Shown here: piece by piece, positions 2,731 to 8,015 of the stretch
How the letters are laid out: the number at the start of each line of letters is the position of its first letter
Position numbering within the stretch: the first letter of the stretch is position 1
Assembly (NCBI GenBank): GCA_002011735.1
Contig: MTOQ01000016.1
Location: 1-37,309 of the forward strand
Length of the DNA stretch: 37,309 bases
Direction of reading: 5' to 3'
Source of the DNA: Nitrospirae bacterium JdFR-81
GTDB lineage: Bacteria > Nitrospirota > Thermodesulfovibrionia > UBA6902
Position numbers and translations under genes: made by a program
The notes under the pieces: generated by a model
Told to the model about the DNA's origin: nothing
The model's database searches: none
What the model saw: only the letters and a program-made list of their open reading frames with translations

Positions 2731-3168
2731 TCAACCCAACTCAGGATATATACCTATCCACTTTATAAATCTGAAATGATTTTTAAGGCCGTTAAAGAGC
2801 CTCTTATCAGCGGTTAGGAAGGACATGCCCCTTGCCTCTGCAAGGGCCACATAAGAGCCATCATATGCGCTTATCCTGTGTCTCGTGGCAATATGAAATA
2901 TCCTCTCCCTCAAAGGGGCCACATCCTCCTTTATGATCTCTATCCCCAGCATCTCACTAATCAGATCCCTTGCCTTCTCCTCTGAAAAACGGGCCACCCT
3001 TGATGCCACAAGACAGGCATTTATTATCTCATATACTATAAGGGAAGGGGCATAAAAGGTCACCTTCCCTCTTGCATAATCACCAATGAGGTCCTGTGCC
3101 TTCCGGTGTCCTTCCTCGTCAAAGAAGTATGCCTTGAGCAGGATGCTCGAATCTATCACTATGTTCAT
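2731..3168 (-). CDS. vapC: PIN-domain toxin, VapC-like ribonuclease
   Basis: A 145-residue PIN-domain protein, predicted Mg-dependent RNase toxin of a type II toxin-antitoxin pair. The acidic residues expected of the PIN site are present: D6 in IDSSIL, E47 in VYEIIN, D103 in AYDGSYVALAE and D121 in TADKRL. The start overlaps the antitoxin stop by 4 bases (ATGA type), the translational coupling usual for such modules. The gene is intact with all catalytic residues, so the toxin should be active. Its RNA target cannot be told from sequence. Confidence 0.88.
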   Translation of the reverse strand: MNIVIDSSILLKAYFFDEEGHRKAQDLIGDYARGKVTFYAPSLIVYEIINACLVASRVARFSEEKARDLISEMLGIEIIKEDVAPLRERIFHIATRHRISAYDGSYVALAEARGMSFLTADKRLFNGLKNHFRFIKWIGIYPELG

Positions 3169-3434
3169 AGCCCCCTCTTCTCAAGTTCCTTTCTGGATAA
3201 GGCATGGATATCCTTTGCCCTGATGCCCGCCTTCTGCATCTCCCTGGAGATCTCGAGCATCCTCAGGTATGTCCTCAGCCTCTTCAGGCCTGTATACTCC
3301 TGATAGGGTAAAATAGCCGCTACAGGGTGCCCCCTCCTTGTGATGATGATCTCCTCTCTCATTGCGATAGATTCTTTAATGAGCTGGGTGAAGTCCTTTT
3401 TCCCCTCAGATATAGTCACATTCTTTGTTCTCAT
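3165..3434 (-). CDS. Phd/YefM-family antitoxin
   Basis: An 89-residue antitoxin. The N-terminal part (about 1-50) matches the Phd/YefM fold: TISEGKKDFTQLIKES, then EEIIITRRGHPVAAILPYQEY. This region usually dimerises and binds the operator. The charged C-terminal part (about 52-89) is the likely toxin-neutralising region. It is the first gene of the module and precedes the PIN toxin. A textbook promoter with a palindrome over its -10 lies just upstream, so autorepression is very likely. The ATG is preceded by AAAGGG. Confidence 0.88.
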   Translation of the reverse strand: MRTKNVTISEGKKDFTQLIKESIAMREEIIITRRGHPVAAILPYQEYTGLKRLRTYLRMLEISREMQKAGIRAKDIHALSRKELEKRGL

Positions 3435-3448
3435 ATAGATACCCTTTG

Positions 3449-3486
3449 TGACTATATAATATAGTCATTATTCCATGGATTGTCAA
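3449..3486 (-). promoter_or_regulatory. toxin-antitoxin promoter with overlapping operator palindrome
   Basis: On the minus strand there is a perfect TTGACA -35 (plus 3481-3486), a 17-base spacer and a TATATT -10 (plus 3458-3463). A perfect inverted repeat, TGACTATAT-T-ATATAGTCA, covers 3449-3467 and contains the -10. A third copy of the half-site (ATATAGTCA on the plus strand, 3410-3418) lies inside the antitoxin coding start. This layout fits autorepression by a Phd-type antitoxin, with the extra half-site allowing cooperative binding. Confidence 0.8.
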
Positions 3487-3555
3487 GTACAGTCGCTGTT
3501 GTATAATCCCCTGGGAGGGCCCTCCTTGATTCATCACCACGGTGAATCTTATAAT
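3480..3555 (+). promoter_or_regulatory. tandem candidate promoters of the cupin operon
   Basis: Promoter 1 is TTGTCA (3480-3485), 16 bases, TATAAT (3502-3507). It shares its -35 region with the divergent toxin-antitoxin promoter. Promoter 2 is TTGATT (3526-3531), 18 bases, TATAAT (3550-3555). It would start transcription at about the cupin ATG (3561), making a leaderless mRNA. An inverted repeat GATTCA...TGAATC (3528-3548) sits between the -35 and -10 of promoter 2, and the palindrome GGAGGGCCCTCC (3514-3525) lies just before it. Both are candidate operators. Confidence 0.5.
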
Positions 3556-3560
3556 CAATT

Positions 3561-4013
3561 ATGCCAGGACGATACTCCTCCTGCGAACTGCCGGTAAAGA
3601 AGACAAGGAGGTCATCCCTCCGCAACAGGCTCTATCCCTTCCAGGGGAATTTTGTATGGAAGGGGATAAGGGTTGAAAGGTATAAACCCTCAGGAGACGA
3701 CTGGTCTGAGATCATAAGGCAGACCATCATAGGCAATCATGGCGAAAGGACCGATTTCGAATTGAGGTATTTCGAGATCAGACCAGGTGGTTATAGCAGT
3801 CTTGAGACCCACAGGCATGAGCATGTGGTTATCGGGATAAGGGGCAGAGGGTGCGTCAGATTGAACAGGAGGGACGTTGAGATCGGCTTTCTGGATGTGC
3901 TTTATATCGCACCCCACACCGTCCACAGGCTATATAACCCGCACAATGAGCCTTTTGGCTTCTTCTGCATCGTGGATTCAAAAAGGGACAGGCCGAGGCC
4001 TGTCAGGAGATAG
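3561..4013 (+). CDS. cupin-domain protein
   Basis: A 150-residue single-domain cupin. Motif 1 is seen in GGYSSLETHRHEHVVIGIRG (the HxH pair and a following His as metal ligands). Motif 2 is in FLDVLYIAPHTVHRLYNP. Residues 1-31 form a basic, Arg/Lys-rich extension before the beta-barrel. A small cupin of this kind could be a metal-dependent enzyme, a sugar or small-molecule binder or a sensor; the sequence does not decide. No Shine-Dalgarno sequence precedes the ATG. The stop lies 6 bases before the DUF763 gene, so the two are almost certainly co-transcribed. An 8-bp inverted repeat with a 2-base centre (3987-4004) lies in the last codons. Confidence 0.8.
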   Translation: MPGRYSSCELPVKKTRRSSLRNRLYPFQGNFVWKGIRVERYKPSGDDWSEIIRQTIIGNHGERTDFELRYFEIRPGGYSSLETHRHEHVVIGIRGRGCVRLNRRDVEIGFLDVLYIAPHTVHRLYNPHNEPFGFFCIVDSKRDRPRPVRR

Positions 4014-4019
4014 GAACCG

Positions 4020-5120
4020 ATGCACCGCACAGGCACAGCAACACTTCCGCTACATTATGGCAGGGCGCCAAGGTGGCTATTTGAGAGGATGAGCCTCCTT
4101 GCGAGGGAGATCGTCATAGCCCTCGTCTCTGAATTCACACCCGAGGAGGTGCTGAAGAGGCTGTCTGATCCATACTGGTTCCAGGCTTTAGGGTGTATCC
4201 TTGGCTTTGACTGGCACTCAAGCGGGCTCACCACCACGGTCACAGGCGCGTTAAAGGAGGGTATCAGGGGGCTTGAAGGAGAGATAGGCCTCTTTATCGC
4301 AGGTGGCAAGGGCACGACATCAAGGAAGACGCCGGAGCAGATCCACCTTATCGGCGAGAGATACTCCATCGAGGCGGATAGACTGATCTATGCAAGCAGG
4401 ATGTCTGCAAAGGTGGACAACTCCGCCGTGCAGGATGGATATCAGCTATATCACCACACCATCTTCTTCACGCGCAATGGCAGGTGGGCAGTGGTCCAGC
4501 AGGGCATGAGTGCATCCACCAGGACTGCAAGACGATACCACTGGATCGGTGAGGGGCTGGAGAGCTTTGTCATCGAGCCCCATAGGGCGGTCTGCTGTGA
4601 TGAAAAGGGCATGACGCTTAATATGGTCGCATCAGAGAGTGAGGGGGCAAGGAACATATCCACGGCCATCGCAAGGGAGAGGCCTGAGAAGGTGATCAGG
4701 GAGATCAAGTCCACGATCAACATGGCCCTTGCAAAGAGACACGGTATAGACCTATCTGACATCAATCCTGAGAGACTGTACACCATATTCCTGAAGACCT
4801 ATGAGCACCAACCACAGGACTTCGAGTCCCTGCTCGGTATAAGCGGTGTCGGGCCAAAGACCATAAGGGCACTGAGCCTCGTCTCTGAATTGATATATGG
4901 AGAACCACCGAGTTACCGCGACCCTGCAAGGTTCAGCTTTGCCCATGGTGGCAAGGATGGAACCCCCTATCCTGTTGACAGGGCCACCTATGACAGGACG
5001 ATAGAGGTCATGCGAAGGGCCATAAACTCCGCAAGGCTGGGGAATCGTGAAAGGATGGATGCAATAAGGAGGCTTTCAAGGTATGAAGATCGTGTTCCTT
5101 GGTGTGGGAGAGGCATGTGA
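4020..5120 (+). CDS. DUF763-family protein with a helix-hairpin-helix motif
   Basis: A 366-residue protein matching DUF763, an uncharacterised family known mainly from archaea and thermophilic bacteria. The family-typical opening GTATLPLHYGRAPRWLF is at residues 4-20. A region rich in conserved Asp/His/Trp follows (FDWHSSG; YQLYHHTIFFTRNGRWAVVQQGM). Near residues 268-293 LLGISGVGPKTIRALSLVSE is a helix-hairpin-helix, the non-specific DNA-binding element of DNA glycosylases and ligases, followed by YGEPPSYRDPARF. This suggests a nucleic-acid role, but the activity is unknown. AGGAG lies 8 bases before the ATG. The last 38 bases overlap the downstream metallo-hydrolase gene in another frame, implying translational coupling. 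Confidence 0.85.
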   Translation: MHRTGTATLPLHYGRAPRWLFERMSLLAREIVIALVSEFTPEEVLKRLSDPYWFQALGCILGFDWHSSGLTTTVTGALKEGIRGLEGEIGLFIAGGKGTTSRKTPEQIHLIGERYSIEADRLIYASRMSAKVDNSAVQDGYQLYHHTIFFTRNGRWAVVQQGMSASTRTARRYHWIGEGLESFVIEPHRAVCCDEKGMTLNMVASESEGARNISTAIARERPEKVIREIKSTINMALAKRHGIDLSDINPERLYTIFLKTYEHQPQDFESLLGISGVGPKTIRALSLVSELIYGEPPSYRDPARFSFAHGGKDGTPYPVDRATYDRTIEVMRRAINSARLGNRERMDAIRRLSRYEDRVPWCGRGM

Positions 5121-5829
5121 TGAGTATCAGCCAAACAATTCACATCTGGTGATATCAGAGACCATACTCCTGCTTGATTGTGGATACACAACACCTCCAC
5201 AGTTATGGAAATACAACCCCGACCCTTCGTTCCTTGATGCGATATACATCACGCACAGACACGCTGACCACTACTTCGGTATCCCCCCGCTCTTTGTGAG
5301 GCTCTGGGAGGAGAGGAGGACCAAGCCCCTCACCATCGTATGCCAGAAGGGGCTAAAGGGCACGATAGAGGAGTTGATAGAATACGGATACAGGGGCCTT
5401 TATGAGAGGCTCACATTCCCTGTGGAATTCCTTGAGATCGAGGAGGAAAGGGAATACAGACTCAATGAGCTCACCATCAAGGCCGCACCAACCGTCCACT
5501 CGGTAAAGAACCTCGCCATCAGGATATCGGATGGGAGGAACACGGTATGCTTCAGTGGCGATGGCAGGTTTAACAGCAGGACAGAGGCCCTGTACAGGGG
5601 TGCTGACCTGCTCATACACGAGGCATACCTGATCGAGGGGCACCACCCGAACCACGCCTGTATAATGGAGCTGGCGGATATGGCCCAGAGGAATGGTATA
5701 GGCTGTCTTGCGCTCACACACCTGCAGAGGGGCATAAGGAGGAGAGAGATAGAGACCATAAGGGCGATGATCGAGAAGAGGGGGCTGAACATCATAATCC
5801 CTGAGGCCCTTGGGGAATACACATTTTAG
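5083..5829 (+). CDS. MBL-fold metallo-hydrolase, RNase Z-like
   Basis: A 248-residue metallo-beta-lactamase-fold hydrolase. The metal site is visible as THRHADH (57-63), TVHSV, the bridging Asp in FSGDGR and the late His in ALTHLQRG. The order, the opening MKIVFLGVGEA with NNSHLVIS, and the section HPNHACIMELADMAQRNG resemble tRNase Z and its relatives. The long flexible exosite arm of true tRNase Z is not evident, so it could instead be another phosphodiesterase of that superfamily. The start lies inside the end of the DUF763 gene, so the two proteins probably act together. Confidence 0.82.
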   Translation: MKIVFLGVGEACDEYQPNNSHLVISETILLLDCGYTTPPQLWKYNPDPSFLDAIYITHRHADHYFGIPPLFVRLWEERRTKPLTIVCQKGLKGTIEELIEYGYRGLYERLTFPVEFLEIEEEREYRLNELTIKAAPTVHSVKNLAIRISDGRNTVCFSGDGRFNSRTEALYRGADLLIHEAYLIEGHHPNHACIMELADMAQRNGIGCLALTHLQRGIRRREIETIRAMIEKRGLNIIIPEALGEYTF

Positions 5830-5930: not shown

Positions 5931-6401
5931 ATGAGAGAGTTTTGTGGATGTCCTGGCTCAGCCATGCAGGACCTCAGGGATAAGGCCCCAGAGACCCATC
6001 AGGAGACAACCTCAAGGGGCTCTGAGTTGAGGCAGTGGCCTGTCCAGCTCCATCTGATAATGCCAACCGCACCATACTATGAGAATGCGGATGTCATCCT
6101 GACCGCTGACTGCGTTGCCTATGCACTGGGCAACTTCCACAGCGATTATCTCAAGGGCAAATCCATCGCCATAGCATGCCCGAAGCTCGATGATGGTCAG
6201 GATGTCTATGTTGAGAAGGTCACATCATGGATCGATGATGCAAATATCAACAGCCTCACCGTGATGATCATGCAGGTGCCCTGCTGCAGGGGACTTGTAA
6301 ATATTGCAAGACAGGCGGTGGAGGCAGCAAAGAGGAAGATCCCGATAAAGGTCATAGTGGTGGGCATCCAGGGAGATATACTCTCTGAGGAGACCGCCTG
6401 A
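5931..6401 (+). CDS. cysteine-rich redox protein, C-terminal half of the 4Fe-4S protein family with CGCPGS motif
   Basis: A 156-residue protein that I recognise as the C-terminal part of a family usually fused to an N-terminal two-cluster ferredoxin in anaerobes. Conserved features are CGCPGS (5-10), RQWPVQLHLIMPTAPYY (34-50), TADCVAYA, IACPKLDD and VPCCRG. Cysteines are at 5, 7, 61, 83, 118 and 119. The ferredoxin half is absent: the 100 bases upstream encode no Cys-rich stretch, and a strong AGAAAGGAGGT lies just before the ATG, so this is a real stand-alone start. It could bind a cluster or partner with a separate ferredoxin. Its physiological role is not known to me. Confidence 0.75.
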   Translation: MREFCGCPGSAMQDLRDKAPETHQETTSRGSELRQWPVQLHLIMPTAPYYENADVILTADCVAYALGNFHSDYLKGKSIAIACPKLDDGQDVYVEKVTSWIDDANINSLTVMIMQVPCCRGLVNIARQAVEAAKRKIPIKVIVVGIQGDILSEETA

Positions 6402-6528: not shown

Positions 6529-7608
6529 ATGAAGCCTGTCGGGACGCACCTTGTTGCTGAATTCATCCACTGTGGCAAGAAATACCTCAACGACAAGGAC
6601 GCCCTCGAGGAGATACTGAGGGACGGTATCCAGAGGTGTGGTATGAACCTCGTCAGCATGGAGGGCAAGCAGTTCAACCCTGTTGGTGCCACCGTGGTCG
6701 CCATCATCAGTGAATCCCACATAGCGATCCACACCTATCCCGAGGCCCGCCATGCCTCCATCGACATATTCACCTGTGCCTCCGTATCAAGGGCTGTGAA
6801 TAGGCTCCTGCAATTCCTGAAGAATAAGCTCAGGCCAAAGACCGTAAGGGTGATAGAGCTACTGAGGGGTAACCCTATTGAGATAATAGATCAGGACTGG
6901 GTGACCTCGTTCTCAGGCGCAGGATGTGGCTTTGAGGTGAGGTATCACTCTGTGAGGAAGCTCTTCAGCAAGAGATCGAAATATCAGCAGATAGATATCA
7001 TTGAGAATGAGAACTTTGGCAGGGTCCTGTTCCTTGACAAGGATGTGCAGATTGCAGAGATAGACTCCCATATATACAGCTGGAACATGATATCACCCAT
7101 CCTTGAGGCAGGTAAAAGGCTCAATAAGGTTGCTATACTTGGCGGAGGCGATGGTGGCATACTCTATGACCTCCTCAGGTACAACCCTGGCAAGGTCGTG
7201 CTTATTGATATAGACGAGGAGGTCATAAAGGCGGCAAAGAGATACCTCAGGCGTATCTGTCATAATGCATTCGATGATCCCAGGGTCAAGATCGTCATAG
7301 CGGATGTCAATAAATACCTTGAGAAGAGACACGGCTTTGACGCCATCATCTATGACCTCACCATGCATCCAGAGGCACTGACGAACATGGGGAGGACGGA
7401 GTTTCTGAGCGGGGTCTTCTCGAAGATGAGCAAGAACCTGAACAAGGATGGTATGGTCACATTCCAGTGCTGTTCTGAGTTCGATACGACAACACAGAAA
7501 CTCCTGAACAGGCTATTGCCAAGATACTTCACCAACATCACATTCAGAAAGGCGTTCATCCCCTCATTCTGTGAGAACTGGATATTCGCCTCTGCAGAGC
7601 CGAAGTAG
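6529..7608 (+). CDS. speD-speE: fused S-adenosylmethionine decarboxylase and spermidine/spermine synthase-like aminopropyltransferase
   Basis: A 359-residue fusion that would both make decarboxylated AdoMet and use it to add aminopropyl groups to a polyamine. Residues 1-115 are a prokaryotic AdoMetDC: SESHIAIHTYPE holds the pyruvoyl-forming Ser63 and His68, and FTCA holds Cys83, the same numbers as in the Thermotoga enzyme. Residues about 130-359 are an aminopropyltransferase with LGGGDGGIL (204-212) and the acidic residue D276 in YDLT. The usual spermidine-synthase signatures QxxxxDExxYHE and DSSDP are replaced by VQIAEIDSHIYSWN and DLTMHPEA, which look like human spermine synthase (VNLAESDLAYTR, DLTAVP). 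Residues IPSFCENWIF also match the human C-terminus in pattern. The product may be spermidine, spermine or thermospermine. Confidence 0.9.
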   Translation: MKPVGTHLVAEFIHCGKKYLNDKDALEEILRDGIQRCGMNLVSMEGKQFNPVGATVVAIISESHIAIHTYPEARHASIDIFTCASVSRAVNRLLQFLKNKLRPKTVRVIELLRGNPIEIIDQDWVTSFSGAGCGFEVRYHSVRKLFSKRSKYQQIDIIENENFGRVLFLDKDVQIAEIDSHIYSWNMISPILEAGKRLNKVAILGGGDGGILYDLLRYNPGKVVLIDIDEEVIKAAKRYLRRICHNAFDDPRVKIVIADVNKYLEKRHGFDAIIYDLTMHPEALTNMGRTEFLSGVFSKMSKNLNKDGMVTFQCCSEFDTTTQKLLNRLLPRYFTNITFRKAFIPSFCENWIFASAEPK

Positions 7609-7610
7609 GA

Positions 7611-8015
7611 TCAGCCGACTATCTTCACCACAACCTTCCTGCTCCTTGGCCCATCGAATTCACAGAAGAAGACAGACTGCCATGTGCCGAGCATGAGCCT
7701 CCCGCCCTCTATTATCACCGAGGTGGAGACACCCGTGAGGGAGGACTTTATATGGGCCGGTGAGTTGCCCTCTGCATGGGAGTAATCGCCATCAAAGGGT
7801 ATGAGCCTTGAAAGGCTCCTCTGGATGTCCCTCTGGACAGATGGATCAGCACCCTCATTGATTGTAATGCCTGCCGTGGTATGTGGCACATATATACAGC
7901 AGATGCCATCCTTTACACCTGAATCCCTGACCAGCCTGTTGACATCATCGGTTATATCAATGAACTCAACCCTTGAGTTTGTCCTGATATTGATGGTCTT
8001 CAGCATATCCCTCAC
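7611..8015 (-). CDS. yjbQ: YjbQ family protein (UPF0047)
   Basis: A 134-residue protein of the YjbQ/UPF0047 family. Conserved segments are YVPHTTAGITINEGADPSV, DGDYSHAEGNSPAHIKSSLTG and LGTWQSVFFCEFDGPR. His and Glu residues in these motifs form a putative metal or phosphate site. Members have weak thiamine-phosphate synthase activity in vitro and an uncertain role in cells. It overlaps the start of lpxK by 4 bases and is the last gene of the lipid A operon. Its stop lies 2 bases from the stop of the convergent polyamine gene, so no separate terminator fits between them. Confidence 0.9.
   Translation of the reverse strand: MRDMLKTINIRTNSRVEFIDITDDVNRLVRDSGVKDGICCIYVPHTTAGITINEGADPSVQRDIQRSLSRLIPFDGDYSHAEGNSPAHIKSSLTGVSTSVIIEGGRLMLGTWQSVFFCEFDGPRSRKVVVKIVG

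Follow-up and report, generated by a model that had tools for sequence, protein, structure and literature searches.

What does a DUF763 protein do in the cell, and does the metallo-hydrolase gene that overlaps its gene in this Nitrospirota genome take part in the same function? The window, that is, the whole stretch of DNA analysed, covers positions 1 to 37,309 of a contig that is 41,911 bases long, in a genome of 2.05 Mb. Its DUF763 gene (4020-5120, forward strand, 366 residues) is separated by 6 nt from the 3' end, at 4013, of a gene for a 150-residue cupin protein (3561-4013, forward strand; Cupin_2, 38.4 bits, over the cut-off). At its other end it overlaps, in a different frame, the start of a gene for a 248-residue RNase Z-like hydrolase of the MBL fold (5083-5829, forward strand). 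An earlier note took the three genes for a translationally coupled unit of nucleic-acid processing or repair; the 38-nt overlap (5083-5120, forward strand) and the intact metal site of the hydrolase are indeed as it described them. A promoter-like site, TTGTCA-16-TATAAT, is located 5' of the cupin gene (3480-3507, forward strand; 11 of 12 consensus positions) and could be the start of a transcript of the three genes. It is a candidate only, as seven sites of this type occur in the stretch against 2.4 expected and a match of this sort does not demonstrate function. Judged from the sequence, a single transcript is plausible, and the cupin, DUF763 and hydrolase genes are probably co-transcribed in the window.

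Several other genes surround the trio. Upstream, on the reverse strand, are a 249-residue nucleoside-diphosphate kinase that continues for about 80 residues past the C-terminal end of the family match (1007-1756) and a toxin-antitoxin-like pair composed of a PhdYeFM antitoxin (PF02604) and a PIN-domain protein (PF01850) at 2731-3434. Downstream, a 156-residue ORF (5931-6401, forward strand) has no Pfam or NCBIfam match and resembles a ferredoxin-like protein of locus L210 (E=1.9e-31; name assigned by eye). It is followed by a 359-residue ORF (6529-7608, forward strand), in which an AdoMet decarboxylase is fused with a spermidine synthase-like domain, and by a YjbQ-like protein (7611-8015, reverse strand; named by eye), whose homologues directly adjoin DUF763 in 5 of the 203 loci surveyed below.

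To compare DUF763 neighbourhoods, genes were called in 222 stretches (the window, L016-L100, L182-L241 and L306-L381), of which 203 loci were kept and 19, with DUF763 proteins at least 95% identical, were dropped. The short loci L002-L015, L101-L181 and L242-L305 were left out of the neighbour counts and archaeal chromosomal loci out of the sample. Flanks were of unequal length, the shortest below 1 kb and the longest about 6 kb, with 8-10 kb for plasmid records; the calling of genes was approximate. None of the 202 loci other than the window carries a hydrolase homologue adjacent to DUF763; a distant one is found in L054, 2.3 kb away and on the opposite strand. A cupin homologue stands beside DUF763 in a single one of these 202 loci (L227), also on the opposite strand. 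Among 61 related genomes, a hydrolase homologue at E<=1e-10 is present in 32 (own genome included), and a close one, with 63% identity, in G046 only, where the hydrolase and DUF763 sit on separate contigs and the gene next to DUF763 codes for a PCC-domain protein. The idea of a conserved DUF763/hydrolase module was rejected on these grounds, since the linkage does not recur in the 202 other loci, an outcome that the earlier note had itself named as speaking against its proposal, and the genes are unlinked in G046. As far as sampled, the trio is a local arrangement, and the DUF763-hydrolase pairing looks particular to the source genome and is of little general interest.

The claim of coupled translation fares no better. 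The overlap spans just the last 12 residues of DUF763, within a variable tail of differing length, and a Shine-Dalgarno-like site of the hydrolase's own, AAGGAGG (5066-5072, forward strand; assigned by eye), stands 10 nt 5' of the hydrolase start. An overlap of 38 nt is not extraordinary: among the 359 close same-strand gene pairs of the survey, 148 overlap, no more than 29 of them by 30 nt or beyond (start codons approximate). The two genes could still have been joined newly, in the source lineage only, as a working pair with coupled translation. The overlap, the tight cupin spacing, the intactness of both genes and the occurrence of the hydrolase orthologue in G046, a DUF763 carrier, would fit such a history, whereas the separate ribosome-binding-like site, the unlinked genes of G046 and the lack of adjacent pairs in the other loci make it quite improbable.

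The hydrolase displays H58-R-H60-A-D62-H63, H139 in a VHS motif, D160 in SGDG and H213 in THLQ; we take H58, H60, D62, H63, H139, D160 and H213 to be the metal-site residues by their roles in the MBL fold. It matches the RNase Z model TIGR02651 at E=3.5e-30 over its N-terminal half, the best stretch covering model positions 1-148 of 302, and its closest solved relative is the RNase Z 1y44 (1.9e-15). With 105.1 bits against a cut-off of 292.95 for this curated equivalog, it is RNase Z-like but no curated RNase Z. The anti-Pycsar family Apyc1 (PF23023) gave 28.3 bits against a cut-off of 50, over the N-terminal part only. A second RNase Z-like ORF of 324 residues (named by eye) is present on contig C58 of the same genome.

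The family assignment of the DUF763 protein is clear, with a PF05559 match at E=1.2e-134 and 449 bits, where the cut-off is 35.5, covering positions 1-319 of the 319-position profile. Pfam gives PF05559 no assigned function. In the part of PMC554113 that concerns it, the family is described as one of unknown function found in archaea and plant-associated bacteria; beyond this paper, the literature searched contained nothing on DUF763 or PF05559, no mention of COG1415 and no other occurrence of the five locus tags that it names. The nearest named relatives, at 70% identity, come from two Nitrospirota metagenome-assembled genomes (L016 and L017). Over 202 sequences, 60 positions of the window protein are at least 97% identical. 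These near-fixed residues include D64, W65, H66, S67, S68 and G69, D133, D139, H146, Q160, Q161 and G162, R171 and R172, and G310, G311, K312 and D313. Most of the near-invariant polar ones are carried by an N-terminal alpha/beta domain (residues 14-204; 4059-4631, forward strand), with the motifs DWHSSG (64-69), QQG (160-162) and ARRY (170-173).

An AlphaFold2 model built with 65 sequences (pLDDT 83, pTM 0.80) predicts this N-terminal domain and a helical C-terminal part, and the N-terminal domain modelled in isolation reaches a pLDDT of 86 and a pTM of 0.85. Two conserved segments, LPLH in the N-terminal region and the near-invariant HGGKD (residues 309-313; 4944-4958, forward strand) in the C-terminal one, are disordered in the single-chain model, a behaviour that can be akin to that of substrate-binding loops. 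Foldseek returned no match at E<=0.001 in the PDB, for either the whole model or the N-terminal domain, nor in BFVD for the DUF763 model. The best VIA Z scores, 5.0 for the whole model and 4.7 for the N-terminal domain (HutP), are both under the level that the tool regards as meaningful. As modelled, the N-terminal domain is without a clear structural match, an absence that is no proof of a new fold.

More can be said of residues 204-300 (4629-4919, forward strand), where the earlier note had recognized a helix-hairpin-helix (HhH) motif. The hairpin GVGPKT is present at residues 276-281, and a family profile of this region retrieved 14 chains at E<=1, with RuvA hairpins as the best (E=0.0025) and ComEA, endonuclease III, topoisomerase V and RecR at E values of 0.3-1. 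HNF1-alpha accounts for two of the 14 chains, matched elsewhere in the profile, and most of the further weak matches are other HhH proteins. Moreover, residues 181-292 align with the N-terminal domain of TEFM (VIA Z 5.0, rmsd 3.0, 77 residues). The motif was thus recovered at the family level, but the single sequence scores 17 bits with Pfam HHH_5, under the cut-off of 27, and for this reason we term the C-terminal part HhH-like. The assignment rests on the profile and the VIA match, since profile comparisons with UvrC and PolX were weak (hhalign probabilities of 0.9% and 10%, respectively). An HhH-GPD glycosylase, considered for the likeness of the GVGPKT...PVDR stretch, was also rejected, with no PF00730 match at E<=0.01 and no such structural match among those listed.

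The neighbourhood survey offers the second line of evidence. A repair-type gene occurs near DUF763 in 38 of the 203 loci with a strict set of labels and in 42 with a loose one. The most frequent is the gene for EndoQ (11 loci), followed by those for a PD-(D/E)XK nuclease (9, all in one Dehalococcoidia lineage), PolX (6), RarA (6, counting a chimera in L326), HhH-GPD glycosylases (5) and LigC with a Pnkp-like kinase (3; L378-L380). UvrC, whose gene is the second upstream of DUF763 in L233 and L237, a UvrD-type helicase, an AlkB-type dioxygenase (L098 and L198) and an Rv2578c-type radical SAM protein are found in two loci each, and a tight array DUF763-PolX-Nth is observed in L205, L208 and L210. 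Family identities were checked on representatives: PolX, Nth, LigC and UvrC score over their NCBIfam cut-offs; EndoQ is under that of TIGR00375, yet matches a solved EndoQ at E=3.8e-55; the similarity of the Pnkp-like kinase to bacterial Pnkp is limited to the kinase domain and scores under the Pnkp cut-off. Weak RarA matches in L209, L040 and L203 (E about 1e-10 to 1e-13), probably other AAA proteins, were dropped. The L326 ORF (2842-3885) consists of a truncated N-terminal half of RarA joined to hexapeptide repeats, either a chimera or an assembly join. The PD-(D/E)XK protein, Cas4-like and of about 445 residues (L038, 7208-8545, and relatives), lies downstream of DUF763 in its nine Dehalococcoidia-type loci.

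These genes are concentrated at the positions closest to DUF763, with 30 of 383 genes at rank 1, 10 of 353 at rank 2, 11 of 318 at rank 3, 2 of 222 at rank 4, 1 of 130 at rank 5 and none of 117 at rank 6 or beyond. Ranks 1-2 thus hold 40 of 736, whereas from rank 4 onward there are 3 of 469; this comparison is descriptive because the repair families were picked after seeing the neighbours. Related loci are not independent in these counts: FastTree parsimony counted 7 state changes for EndoQ and 21 when the loose labels were used, and many of the linkages are confined to a single lineage. Since the family often adjoins DNA-repair genes in other bacteria, DUF763 is probably a DNA-repair protein.

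Other neighbours recur as well, several of them named by eye. The commonest specific one is an EF-Tu-domain-2-like protein of 85 residues, under the Pfam cut-off, found in 15 of 203 loci (L029, L030, L314 and 12 others) and adjacent in 10. Another, found on the opposite strand in 5 of 137 loci, was judged by eye to be a TruA-like pseudouridine synthase. Together with the RNase Z-like hydrolase of the window and the Pnkp-like kinase, a family whose members can act in RNA repair, these genes could suggest that DUF763 serves RNA or translation, for example in RNA repair or tRNA maturation, in the window with the hydrolase. We consider this unlikely: the hydrolase does not recur and its genome has the other RNase Z-like ORF, and the more specific recurrent enzymes, namely EndoQ, PolX, Nth, LigC, UvrC and AlkB, are DNA enzymes.

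Sensor kinases (16 of 203 loci), OMP decarboxylase (8, 7 of them adjacent), YjbQ (5) and PCC-domain proteins (5) accompany DUF763 in other lineages, and no repair gene of the strict set lies within the fetched flanks of 165 of the 203 loci. DUF763 might then be a housekeeping or metabolic protein, placed near repair genes by lineage-specific clustering without shared function. The EndoQ presence data given below would agree with this account, for which we see a minor chance; against it, different repair genes recur across unrelated lineages at the closest positions, and DUF763 bears an HhH-like signature suggestive of DNA binding.

EndoQ allows linkage to be separated from mere presence. Of 80 genomes sampled in a single phylum, half with DUF763 and half without, the first 40 include 31 with EndoQ and the other 40 include 28 (Fisher P 0.61), so the two proteins are not mutually dependent. 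However, among the 31 that have both, 8 carry the two genes no more than 5 kb apart, where genome size would predict about 0.12, although shared ancestry leaves the Poisson P for this contrast too low. The two genes are on the same strand in G1115, G1041, G1044, G1250, G1118 and G1082, and on different strands in G1051 and G1089. The DUF763 proteins linked to EndoQ are 52-88% identical with each other (median 60, versus 54 for random pairs); since they diverge to 52% identity, the linkage is old or repeated.

The distribution of the family is wide and patchy. DUF763 occurs in 13 of 61 relatives (own genome included), in 30 of the 295 genomes from the phylum of the window, in 21 of 398, 46 of 296, 75 of 297 and 13 of 251 genomes of four other phyla and, among 14 control genomes, in Sulfolobus acidocaldarius. 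There are also 230 plasmid records with DUF763, mostly rhizobial and a few haloarchaeal. On the plasmid of Rhizobium sp. WYJ-E13 (L099), the genes for an ASCH protein, a small P-loop kinase and DUF763 are packed closely one after another, with that for an N-6 DNA methylase nearby, and L201 has a trio of this kind. The patchiness, the plasmid records and this methylase locus are what a part in mobile elements or anti-phage defence could leave behind. Such a part seems very improbable, as the window protein belongs to no PADLOC family, no match was found among 50,697 phage records, two peptide-pattern scans of IMG/VR confirmed no relative, and the recurrent neighbours found are non-defence genes.

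Collectively, these data are best read as pointing to an HhH-containing DNA-repair factor of the cell, possibly an excision-repair enzyme. With a confidence of about 0.55 in this reading, we place its role at or near incision or the processing of ends in base- or alternative-excision repair. What supports repair is the share of loci with a repair-type gene and its concentration at the closest positions, the excess of EndoQ within 5 kb, and the HhH profile combined with the near-fixed positions and the lack of phage matches. It is weakened by the majority of loci without a repair gene in the fetched flanks, the failure of EndoQ presence to track DUF763, the single-lineage linkages, the recurrence of non-repair neighbours, the HHH_5 score and the choice of families after inspection. 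Of the earlier proposal of a nucleic-acid processing or repair unit, the trio is lost, while repair as the role of DUF763 itself gains from the neighbourhoods and the HhH-like part.

The step is suggested by the recurrent neighbours: EndoQ, Nth and UvrC incise damaged DNA, PolX is a polymerase that fills gaps and bears a PHP nuclease domain, the Pnkp-like kinase and LigC heal and seal ends, and RarA is also among them. Most likely, the HhH-like C-terminal part would hold the DNA backbone near a nick, a gap or an abasic or damaged site, and the N-terminal domain, with DWHSSG, QQG, ARRY and the flexible LPLH and HGGKD loops, would act on or sense the lesion or the cut end. After incision by EndoQ, strand displacement with Fen1, a 5'-3' exonuclease, or EndoV together with EndoQ are among the proposals in the pertinent part of PMC4357722; the corresponding part of PMC6202378 passes the nick to a downstream pathway that it leaves unnamed. 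As a guess, DUF763 could be the missing activity after EndoQ, which agrees with the neighbourhoods but not with the data on EndoQ presence, making a broader role likelier. A new class of repair enzyme, with a catalytic alpha/beta domain and an HhH-like module in one chain, which would remove the damaged nucleotide or clean the end after incision by EndoQ, Nth or UvrC, before PolX and ligase, is a tentative and rather doubtful extension.

DUF763 is a conserved, widespread and almost unstudied family, present in many bacterial phyla and in archaea. Were it a repair factor, EndoQ, PolX-Nth and LigC with its kinase would be directly testable partners, and it could help explain how alternative excision repair of deaminated bases is completed in bacteria and archaea.

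Compared with known systems, the window hydrolase shares HxHxDH and the later His/Asp/His with RNase Z and other MBL-fold hydrolases, but differs from RNase Z in its length of 248 residues, in a score far under the TIGR02651 cut-off and in a best-matching stretch limited to model positions 1-148. Within PF05559, the window protein has a median identity of about 58% to the other sampled members and, as far as found, differs solely by the overlapping hydrolase gene. EndoQ-dependent alternative excision repair is connected to the family through the 11 of 203 loci in which an EndoQ gene adjoins DUF763 or lies close to it, whereas DUF763 itself is no EndoQ, none is seen next to it in the window, and the presence of the two is uncorrelated. 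Finally, an HHH_5 score under the cut-off and an N-terminal domain without clear structural counterpart distinguish DUF763 from the HhH proteins RuvA, ComEA, endonuclease III, RecR, topoisomerase V and TEFM, with which it shares the GVGPKT hairpin signature.
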